NCBI RefSeq assembly: GCF_004116465.1
Contig: NZ_PDJV01000003.1
Location: 186,001-250,000, forward strand
DNA from: Arcobacter sp. F2176
GTDB lineage: Bacteria > Campylobacterota > Campylobacteria > Campylobacterales > Arcobacteraceae
DNA length: 64,000 nt
Direction of reading: 5' to 3'
Shown here: piece by piece, positions 21,563-24,348 of the stretch
Layout of the letters: every line of letters begins with the position of its first letter
Numbering within the stretch: position 1 is the first letter of the stretch
Notes under the pieces: generated by a model
Databases searched by the model: none
Told to the model about the DNA's origin: nothing
The model's input: only the letters and a program-made list of their open reading frames with translations
Translations under genes and position numbers: made by a program

Positions 21563-21925
21563 TTAATTCTCAAGTTCTTTTACCAATTCTTTATAAAATT
21601 TTTCAAAAGAGGGCAATACTAGCTTTGCTTGTCTTTGTTTTTTTCCCCACATAGGTTCAGGAAAATATGAATCATCTTTAAATCTTGCCATTACATGAAA
21701 GTGTACATGGGGAACATAATTCCCAAAAGAAGCAATATTTATCTTCTCTGGATTAAAATAATTTATCATCTTTTTTTCTATAATGTCCAAGACTCTTAAT
21801 ATTTCCATTTTAGTTTCGCTATCACATTGACTAAATTCTTTTAAATTTTTTTGAGTAAAAATTTTCAACCAAGGTATTTCACTTTTTTCAATTTCTACTT
21901 TTATTAAACTATTTTCATAAATCAT
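21563..21925 (-). CDS. HIT-family nucleotide hydrolase/transferase
   Basis: HIT proteins hydrolyse or transfer nucleotidyl groups. The 120-residue protein carries the histidine triad HVHFHVM (about residues 74-80), and FGNYVPHVHFHVM is typical of bacterial HIT enzymes. It starts 8 bases after the MBL-GAF-HD-GYP gene stop, so the two form a two-gene operon. A link to nucleotide signal breakdown is inferred from that. The gene is convergent with the dipeptidase gene. Confidence 0.88.
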   Translation of the reverse strand: MIYENSLIKVEIEKSEIPWLKIFTQKNLKEFSQCDSETKMEILRVLDIIEKKMINYFNPEKINIASFGNYVPHVHFHVMARFKDDSYFPEPMWGKKQRQAKLVLPSFEKFYKELVKELEN

Positions 21926-21933
21926 ATTTCCCC

Positions 21934-24348
21934 TTATATATTTTCAAAATCAACTGTGATTTCATCCATTTGTTCTTCACTTAAATATTTATTTGCATAA
22001 TCTAAGTGAAGATTATTATCAACAAAAAACTTAACTATATCTCTATCTAAATGTTGATCTTTTATCATAAATGATAAAATTCTAAGTGAAGTATTAAGTG
22101 AATTTGCTTTTTTGTATGGTCTATCATTTGCAGTTAGTGCTTCAAATACATCTGCAACTGCAAGTATTTTATCCTCTATTGTCATAGGTAAATCAAGAAT
22201 TTCAGGAGCAGAATAACCACCACCTTTTACCATTTTGTGATGAGAACCAGCGATTACAGGAACCCTTTTTAGTTTTTTAGGAAAAGGCATAGTCTCTAAC
22301 ATTTTATAAGATACTGTAACATGGTTGTTTATTATATCCCTTTCTTCATCTGTTAAAGTACCTTTTTTGATGCATAAATTATATACTTCATCTTCACTAA
22401 GTAAGTTTGTATCTTCACCATTTATTTTAAGTTTTTGTTTTGCAATCTCTTTTATTCTTTCAATTTTTTTATCTTCCATGAACTCACCACCTGTGTTACA
22501 TGAAATAACAAAATCAAGATCTTCCTCTAAAGAAGTAATTTTATTTTGAAAAGCTATTCTTAATTGTTCTTTTTCTTTTATAGATGAAGTGTTTGAGATT
22601 TCTTTGTAATATTCCAATTCATAATCTTTTTTTACAATTTCAAATTTTGCTTTTACAGTATTTACTCTATCATAAATTGTTTCTAGCTTTTTACCTTTAT
22701 CTACAACATATTCAGGTGTAACAATTTTACCAATGTCATGAAGCCAAGCAGCTCTACTCATCTGTTTTATTTCATCTGGTGTAAAATTAATATCTTTAAA
22801 TACTGTTTTGTCATTATTTATTGCTTTTGTTAGAGTTTCTGCTATCTCTGCAACTCTATTAATATGACCACCTGTATATTCAGATTTTTCACCAATAGCT
22901 GTCGCAATTGATTTAATAAAAGAGTCCAATAAGTTTTCTAATTCAGTTATTAATCTATTATTAGTAATTGAAACAGCAGCTTGTGATGCCATTGATTCTA
23001 TTAATTGTTTGTCTTCATTTGTAAATGTTATAGCATTCCCATTATCATCCATTTTATTTAATAATTGAAGTACTCCTATTACATCATCTTCATGGTTTTT
23101 CATGGGAATTACAAGCATTGATTTTGTTCTATAACCGGTTGTTTTATCAAACTTTTTTGTACCTTCAAAATTAAAATCTTTTGTTTCATAAACATCAGGG
23201 ATATTAATTAGTTTACCTTCTAGAGCACAAAGAGCTGCTACCATATGTTCGTTTGGCTTGCCATCTTCTTTATATAAAGGTAACTCCGGCCAAATGATTT
23301 TGCCTTCAGTTCCTCCCATTTTAATACTTAATGAGTCCGTTTGCACAACTTGAAACTTCAACCTTTTTTCATCTTCTGTTACTAAATAAAGTGTTCCTCC
23401 ATCAGCATCAGAAAACTCTTTCGCCCCTAAAAGTATCTTTTCCATTAGAACATCAAAGTTTTTTTCACTTGTAAGTGATTTACCAATATCAATTAATTTT
23501 TTAATCTCTTTTTTATTTATATTAGTTCTATTTGTATTGTATGCTAAGTATTCATTAGATAATGAAATTACATCACCATCGTCTAATATTTTACCTTCAT
23601 TAAGAAGTAAGTCATAGTCTTGAATCTCTTTTCTTAAAATTTTTTCATATGCAGGTTTTATGTGATTTATGTAAATTCTTAAATCATCTCTTTTTAATTT
23701 TTTTAATTGCTCACTTAGCAAGGCAGGAGTTAAGTGCTTACTATCAAAAGCTAATTGTTTGAATTTTGAGGGAAACGATACATCTATTATTGCAGCTTTG
23801 ATATTTAAATTATTATTTATAGTTTCCCAAATAGAATCGCAACAATAAGTATCTGATGAAAAGAGTAAGGAGTTTTGATTTTTTGTAATAATATAACCAC
23901 AACTTGAATTTGTATGATTATTTTTTATTGCAGTGATTTTTGTATCATCATCTAAAATAATTGTTTCATTTATATTTATTGGTTTGAAAACAATAGCTTT
24001 AGATTTTTTATTAAGCAATTCAATTTCAGAAAAATCAGGCCAAATTTCCCAGTTTAAGATATATTTTCGTAAGTTTTCTAAGGTTTTACTTGTTCCATAG
24101 ATAGTAATCGGTTTTTTTCTTTTTTCAAAAAAGATATCAAGTATATATGGTATATCGTTTAAGTGATCTAAATGGGAATGGGTTAAAAAAATATTATCAA
24201 TGTATTGAGCATCAATTCCTAAACCTTTTACAATGTTGCCAGCATCAATTACACTATTTTGATTTATTTGTATACAAGTTGTACTAAAGTCTAAACTTTT
24301 ACTACCATATGCACCTAGTACTTTTATCGAATTTTTCATTACTTTCAT
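21934..24348 (-). CDS. Fusion of metallo-beta-lactamase-fold phosphodiesterase, GAF and HD-GYP domains
   Basis: An 804-residue signalling protein with three modules. Residues 1-260 are an MBL fold with metal motif HSHLDH (57-62), like class II cAMP phosphodiesterases and RNase Z. Residues about 280-450 are a GAF sensor domain. The C-terminal half is HD-GYP, with HDIGK near 536, a later H (NHV), then HHKMVKGGGY near 702 and VADVFEALTANDRPYKK. Two points differ from the HHExxDGxGYP consensus: HHK replaces HHE and GYS replaces GYP. About 100 charged coiled-coil residues (near 552-655) are inserted inside the HD-GYP domain. Cyclic nucleotides are the likely substrates. It is followed by a HIT gene. 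Confidence 0.85.
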   Translation of the reverse strand: MKVMKNSIKVLGAYGSKSLDFSTTCIQINQNSVIDAGNIVKGLGIDAQYIDNIFLTHSHLDHLNDIPYILDIFFEKRKKPITIYGTSKTLENLRKYILNWEIWPDFSEIELLNKKSKAIVFKPININETIILDDDTKITAIKNNHTNSSCGYIITKNQNSLLFSSDTYCCDSIWETINNNLNIKAAIIDVSFPSKFKQLAFDSKHLTPALLSEQLKKLKRDDLRIYINHIKPAYEKILRKEIQDYDLLLNEGKILDDGDVISLSNEYLAYNTNRTNINKKEIKKLIDIGKSLTSEKNFDVLMEKILLGAKEFSDADGGTLYLVTEDEKRLKFQVVQTDSLSIKMGGTEGKIIWPELPLYKEDGKPNEHMVAALCALEGKLINIPDVYETKDFNFEGTKKFDKTTGYRTKSMLVIPMKNHEDDVIGVLQLLNKMDDNGNAITFTNEDKQLIESMASQAAVSITNNRLITELENLLDSFIKSIATAIGEKSEYTGGHINRVAEIAETLTKAINNDKTVFKDINFTPDEIKQMSRAAWLHDIGKIVTPEYVVDKGKKLETIYDRVNTVKAKFEIVKKDYELEYYKEISNTSSIKEKEQLRIAFQNKITSLEEDLDFVISCNTGGEFMEDKKIERIKEIAKQKLKINGEDTNLLSEDEVYNLCIKKGTLTDEERDIINNHVTVSYKMLETMPFPKKLKRVPVIAGSHHKMVKGGGYSAPEILDLPMTIEDKILAVADVFEALTANDRPYKKANSLNTSLRILSFMIKDQHLDRDIVKFFVDNNLHLDYANKYLSEEQMDEITVDFENI

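Follow-up and report, generated by a model that had tools for sequence, protein, structure and literature searches.

An 804-residue protein encoded in the window (the 64,000-nucleotide stretch of the 3.27-Mb Arcobacter sp. F2176 genome that was analysed) joins an MBL domain, a GAF domain and an HD-GYP-type domain in one chain. Judged from its sequence, this fusion is probably a two-messenger enzyme, which would turn over both cAMP and c-di-GMP within a signalling module built on CHASE2 adenylate cyclases. A dual phosphodiesterase had been proposed in a first-pass annotation. The proposal, in which catalysis is a prediction, gains from the completeness of both sets of metal ligands, from the membership of the MBL domain in the class-II phosphodiesterase family, from the coupling to a cyclase and from the repeated joining of the two domains. 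The annotation had also reported two adjacent genes, for the fusion and for a HIT protein, and had read in the fusion an HSHLDH site, a GAF domain and the letters HHK and GYS. All of these are present, as follows:

21934-24348, minus strand: MBL-GAF-HD-GYP-type fusion, 804 residues (open reading frame, Pfam domains, AlphaFold2 model)
23554-24348, minus strand: class-II cyclic-nucleotide phosphodiesterase-like MBL domain, residues 1-265 (PF02112, yeast PDE1 profile match, AlphaFold2)
24163-24180, minus strand: HSHLDH metal motif, H57, H59, D61 and H62 (alignment)
24034-24057, minus strand: LNWEIWPD signature, residues 98-105; FNDLIWPD in yeast PDE1 (alignment to PDE1)
22948-23511, minus strand: GAF domain, residues 280-467 (PF01590, 8.9e-11; phmmer; VIA)
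21979-22941, minus strand: HD-GYP-type domain, residues 470-790 (PF13487, 9.9e-29; homology clear)
22378-22701, minus strand: HdiD-type insertion, residues 550-657 (alignments, AlphaFold2 topology)
22210-22242, minus strand: HHKMVKGGGYS loop, residues 703-713, instead of HHExxDGxGYP (alignment)
21563-21925, minus strand: HIT-family protein (HVHFH), 120 residues (PF01230, 1.9e-7)

Domains of the fusion protein

Pfam matches cover residues 34-219 (Lactamase_B_2 / PDEase_II), 299-461 (GAF) and 494-569 and 653-771 (HD and HD_5). Every domain is confidently predicted in the AlphaFold2 model (mean pLDDT 89.8); their placement relative to each other is less sure (pTM 0.58). The MBL-GAF-HD-GYP layout, for which the annotation had suggested a domain-architecture search, is found across Campylobacterota families, with essentially invariant metal ligands, which argues that the layout is not due to chance. 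A plasmid search with the fusion yielded GAF-HD-GYP relatives alone, and coverage of the query stayed below 80% in every case.

The isolated MBL domain matches PF02112 with 41.3 bits (cut-off 23.7; E 1.3e-10), and all 26 family relatives compared match it too. Among solved structures, the best sequence match of the family profile is yeast PDE1 (2.6e-15), a class-II cAMP phosphodiesterase (PF02112; structure 4ojv). Together with the HSHLDH motif, residues H145, D166 and H229 complete the seven standard metal ligands of the putative site, which are kept in 99 to 101 of 101 aligned MBL domains. The near-invariant FNxxIWPD and HL(T/S)P segments of the family align to the same segments of PDE1. Within LNWEIWPD, N99 and W103 are found in all 101 domains, P104 in 100 and D105 in 99. 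The predicted fold (pLDDT 93.5) superimposes well on 4ojv (VIA Z 24.6). This fold is common to RNase Z, YhfI, Apyc1 and PhnP, so the substrate does not follow from it. Moreover, the fold scores of PDE1, YhfI and RNase Z are tied (Z about 25), and the substrate argument therefore rests on sequence and context. We infer that the MBL domain belongs to the class-II cyclic-nucleotide phosphodiesterase family, with cAMP hydrolysis as its predicted activity.

The closest PDB match over the GAF and HD parts together is PmGH (4mcw; VIA Z 24.9). The full standard set of seven HD-GYP ligands is present (H495, H537, D538, H676, H703, H704 and D733). As far as the letters tell, neither of the two findings by which the annotation would have held its proposal refuted, an incomplete ligand set in the MBL domain and an HD-GYP site that fails to bind metals, is seen. 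The seven ligands are kept in 38/38 fusions and 34/34 standalone relatives, and the lysine of the HD motif is likewise invariant in these 72 sequences. Tyr491, within a Y-T-G triplet, takes the place of the eighth PmGH ligand, E185. Bellini and colleagues set a Y/F group apart from the trinuclear E/D-T-G group (PMC4159591), and Y491 places the window domain in the former. The two-metal kind of HD-GYP domain has been linked to one-step cleavage (PMC8177086). Since the carboxylate for a third metal is absent, pGpG is the probable product. Two further positions differ from PmGH: S489 and E736 replace D183 and D308, which PmGH needs for activity (PMC4159591), and Ser and Glu are found there in all 72 relatives. 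With 32 GGDEF matches in the window genome, c-di-GMP can be expected there.

The window copy departs from the HHExxDGxGYP signature, and we therefore term it an HD-GYP-derived domain. HHE and GYP are found in 28 of the 38 fused and in all 34 standalone relatives. HHK occurs with GYS or GYG in 10 of the 38 aligned fusions (window, L037, L117, L118, L120, L121, L123, L124, L127 and L130), and mixed cases with HHE/GYP were not seen. In a tree of HD domains, those HHK members that were included (window copy, L037, L121, L130 and L123) group as one clade. No HHK-type fusion stands beside a cyclase in the neighbourhoods mapped. GYP-to-Ala mutants of PmGH keep activity, P286A among them (PMC4159591), and GYS alone is thus no argument against activity. 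The HHK/GYS change is possibly an altered substrate loop of one clade. Decay was considered as another cause and is not supported, because no metal ligand has been lost and the clade conserves its HHK loop.

The HD-GYP-type domain also contains an insertion of about 105-110 residues, located between the HD motif and the helices that come after it. The annotation had described a coiled coil of roughly 100 residues and suggested structure prediction. The insertion is indeed present and two long helices are predicted (559-586 and 590-618), but the AlphaFold2 model adds short helices and a beta-hairpin (639-648), so that it is not a pure coiled coil. It corresponds to the HdiD subdomain, named in January 2026 (PMC12943098; LIC_11189). 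Standalone GAF-HD-GYP proteins of several phyla carry an insertion of 97-124 residues at the same place, and the alignment to a Leptospira relative spans it. We therefore rejected the idea that the insertion is a novelty of the window protein.

The GAF domain is PDE5/PmGH-like. Its nearest solved relatives include the GAF domain of PDE5 (phmmer about 1e-25; VIA Z 21.5 to the PDE5A GAF). In the window copy the NKF(x3)D motif reads NK...F(x3)DK, the final E of NKFDE being replaced by K. The complete NKFDE motif, which alone does not prove ligand binding, is found in 36 of 45 fusions and in 3 of 18 standalone proteins of the insert type. A cAMP-activated GAF-HD-GYP protein (Tlr0485) and a cAMP-responsive GAF-GGDEF protein (Lcd1) are published precedents (PMC8846402). 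From the resemblance to PDE5, the retention of NKFDE in fusions and these precedents, we propose that the GAF domain is possibly a cAMP sensor gating c-di-GMP hydrolysis. This is the weakest step of the proposal.

Genomic context and repeated joining

The informative partner of the fusion family is the CHASE2 adenylate cyclase. A cluster recurs among 37 other family loci, with the order aminotransferase, cation efflux, fusion, CHASE2 class-III cyclase, TPR and FecR. In 21 of these loci the fusion lies beside the cyclase, mostly within 20 bases and on the same strand. A class-wide sample of 397 genomes, from which we excluded weak matches, contained strong MBL homologues in 92 genomes, class-III cyclases in 77 and both in 75. 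The MBL family is thus found in 75/77 genomes with a cyclase and in 17/320 without one (Fisher 2e-61, not corrected for ancestry). The association is tighter for the fused form, with a cyclase in 58/59 genomes versus 17/30 for MBL alone. Outside Arcobacteraceae, the two genes lie within 6 kb of each other in 41 of the 54 genomes having both. Some genomes (G002, G006 and G083) keep the fusion with no class-III cyclase detected. The cyclases carry the metal Asp residues, the Lys/Thr pair and the Asn/Arg pair. In class-III cyclases, a Lys/Thr pair is expected for ATP.

The window lineage is arranged differently. Its fusion gene has left the cyclase locus; it adjoins the rpsM-rpsK-rpsD-rpoA-rplQ operon and is followed by the HIT gene. 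Another contig of the window genome carries the aminotransferase, cation efflux and cyclase genes without the fusion (L116). The juxtaposition of phosphodiesterase and CHASE2 cyclase genes therefore does not hold in the window genome, whose cyclases are at C5, C8 and C18. This genome encodes a HAMP class-III cyclase of another kind (G000:C5:69538; L114 2288-4219) and two CHASE2 cyclases. It also has 8 cNMP-binding matches.

The cluster itself is already known. Mo et al. described a CHASE2 cyclase / cAMP phosphodiesterase / FecR / TPR cluster of Campylobacterota in 2022 and reported its phosphodiesterase to be able to hydrolyse cAMP (PMC9239204). From its position and the co-clustered genes, this phosphodiesterase is very likely the MBL fusion family.

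The HIT gene lies about 9 bases after the fusion gene on the same strand. A consensus scan found no terminator between the two genes, and promoter-like matches were not above chance; in the window, the two genes are probably cotranscribed. The annotation had cast the HIT protein as a partner that processes the linear products. In favour of this, 6 related genomes from three genera have the HIT gene on the strand of the fusion, either 9-14 bases downstream or overlapping it. However, a HIT homologue is present in 96/104 family genomes, including most of those without the fusion, and adjoins the fusion only in these 6, which belong to the lineage with the fusion gene at a different locus. Where the fusion occupies the cyclase locus, the HIT gene is elsewhere in the genome. 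On this distribution the HIT protein is not supported as a functional partner, and we give a role in the pathway almost no credence.

Three fused layouts exist in Campylobacterota: MBL-GAF-HD with HdiD, as in the window, MBL-GAF-HD without HdiD, and GAF-HD-MBL. In the MBL tree, the campylobacterotal domains form one clade (98% SH-aLRT). In the HD tree, their partners fall into two deeply separated groups, and the E-T-G triplet is found only in the insertless partners (L181-L187, L191). One MBL clade with two HD lineages means that the union was made at least twice. This repeated union is the strongest argument that both activities belong together.

The permuted GAF-HD-GYP-MBL proteins are insertless, have about 650 residues and carry E-T-G. 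They are encoded beside or near a CHASE2 cyclase (L181 6791-8749, L182 2895-4853, L183 2873-4813 and L191 7058-8995). At L132 (5009-9681) the form is split: separate MBL and GAF-HD-GYP genes flank a cyclase gene. At L187 (4071-5611) two MBL family genes stand in tandem behind a GAF-HD-GYP gene. In one genus (L128 and L129; genomes G082 and G078) several species have lost the HD-GYP half, leaving an MBL protein of ~300 residues, and some of these MBL-only species are without any class-III cyclase. The fusion gene of L131 is in two frames (402 and 380 residues) in one genome, by frameshift or sequencing error.

In Beta- and Gammaproteobacteria, separate genes encode MBL and GAF-HD-GYP. They often share a cluster with genes for a cNMP-binding protein, a GAF-MshEN-T2SSE ATPase and a CHASE2 cyclase. 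The order CHASE2 cyclase, class-II phosphodiesterase-like MBL, cNMP-binding/rhodanese, GAF-MshEN-T2SSE ATPase, GAF-HD-GYP is conserved at L043 (617-5674), L045 (3-6608), L061 and L073. There, turnover of cAMP and c-di-GMP adjoins a secretion/pilus ATPase with a potentially c-di-GMP-binding MshEN. The 800-residue GAF protein of the betaproteobacterial clusters was considered as the CHASE2 cyclase; it is this ATPase, and another neighbouring gene encodes the cyclase.

Proposed mechanism and alternatives

The two-messenger enzyme could work as follows. The membrane CHASE2 class-III cyclase, whose catalytic residues are intact, would make cAMP. Binding of cAMP to the GAF domain may turn on the HD-GYP-type domain, which would linearise c-di-GMP, probably to pGpG. 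The N-terminal class-II phosphodiesterase domain would then terminate the signal and reset the switch by hydrolysing cAMP to AMP. We tentatively suggest, as a possibility of lower rank, that the protein is a self-resetting switch: GAF-bound cAMP would start the destruction of c-di-GMP, the fused phosphodiesterase would destroy the same cAMP, and the protein itself would set the length of the pulse. Such a switch would have been built at least twice from different HD-GYP lineages, in both domain orders.

Several features speak against the two-messenger reading, namely Ser and Glu for D183 and D308, the HHK/GYS loop, the NKFDE motif ending in K, the fusion genomes without a cyclase and the location of the window cyclases on other contigs. 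Some of them would suit a protein under reverse control: the MBL domain would be active as a cAMP phosphodiesterase, and cAMP breakdown would be regulated by c-di-GMP bound to the HD-GYP domain, which would serve as a receptor or have very weak activity. Ser and Glu occupy the D183 and D308 positions throughout, and HHK and GYS/GYG characterise the window's clade. In addition, two V. cholerae proteins that differ at a single critical residue each, VC2497 and VC2340, showed no activity (PMC4212101), and the HD-GYP domain DvhD serves c-di-GMP sensing in Desulfovibrio (PMC13090378; 9rbz). We nevertheless consider a receptor unlikely. A domain that only binds its ligand would not usually keep seven metal ligands and the HD-motif lysine invariant in 72 relatives. 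VCA0681 lacks a D308 equivalent and is active (PMC4212101), and PmGH tolerates loss of its GYP residues (PMC4159591).

Alternatively, both domains could be active and uncoupled. Their joining would then reflect no more than a shared place of action near one membrane cyclase complex, and the GAF domain would serve dimerisation. The PmGH dimer is indeed formed by the GAF domain and its long helix (PMC4159591), the NKFDE motif of the window protein is incomplete, and Beta- and Gammaproteobacteria encode the parts separately. The origin of the fusion at least twice, in both orders, and its tracking of the cyclase (58/59) make this arrangement less likely still than a receptor. Far less probable is a substrate of the MBL domain other than a cyclic mononucleotide, such as the ends of RNA or the linear pGpG that the HD-GYP domain would release. 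The fold is the same as in RNase Z and PhnP, and RNase Z is also the best NCBIfam resemblance, far under the cut-off of that model. Against this stand the PDEase_II membership, the PDE1-like FNxxIWPD segment and the co-occurrence with a cAMP cyclase, which extends to other phyla, where MBL-alone genes stand beside cyclases. We therefore retain the two-messenger enzyme as the favoured reading. If it is true, a conserved protein with both degradation sites, tied class-wide to the enzyme that makes cAMP, would be a direct hard-wired link between the two messengers, and cAMP signalling in Campylobacterota would become testable with one purified protein.

Comparison with known systems

The literature searched, which covered few subscription papers, contains no report of a class-II cAMP phosphodiesterase and an HD-GYP domain in one protein, and the dual-enzyme fusion is undescribed there. 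The main text of Mo et al. does not mention MBL, GAF or a fused HD-GYP (PMC9239204), and the window gene lies outside their cluster.

The MBL domain shares with class-II phosphodiesterases (PF02112; PDE1, 4ojv) the HxHLDH motif, the other ligands, the FNxxIWPD and HL(T/S)P segments and the fold. It differs from PDE1 by its fusion to GAF and HD-GYP domains and by low identity (24%), and its substrate is predicted from sequence. The atypical class-II enzymes Rv1339 and YhfI and the phage protein Apyc1 have the same MBL fold, and activity on cyclic mononucleotides has been reported or proposed for them. Their profile match is weaker than that of PDE1, they have no GAF or HD-GYP parts, and YhfI has a gap at the IWPD segment.

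Tlr0485, a cAMP-activated GAF-HD-GYP protein that we liken by description only, and Bd1971, a cAMP-activated EAL protein, likewise couple cAMP to c-di-GMP breakdown within one protein. Published descriptions present both as cAMP sensors and report no destruction of cAMP by either. PmGH (4mcw) has in common with the window protein the layout of GAF, long helix and HD-GYP and seven of its eight metal ligands. Unlike PmGH, the window protein carries an additional MBL domain and an HdiD insertion; in its HD-GYP part, Tyr stands for the E185 ligand, Ser for D183 and Glu for D308, and the loop is of the HHK/GYS type. Finally, the HdiD subdomain of LIC_11189 is at the same place and has the same make-up of two long helices, short helices and a beta-hairpin, in a protein that carries a REC domain where the window protein carries the MBL domain.
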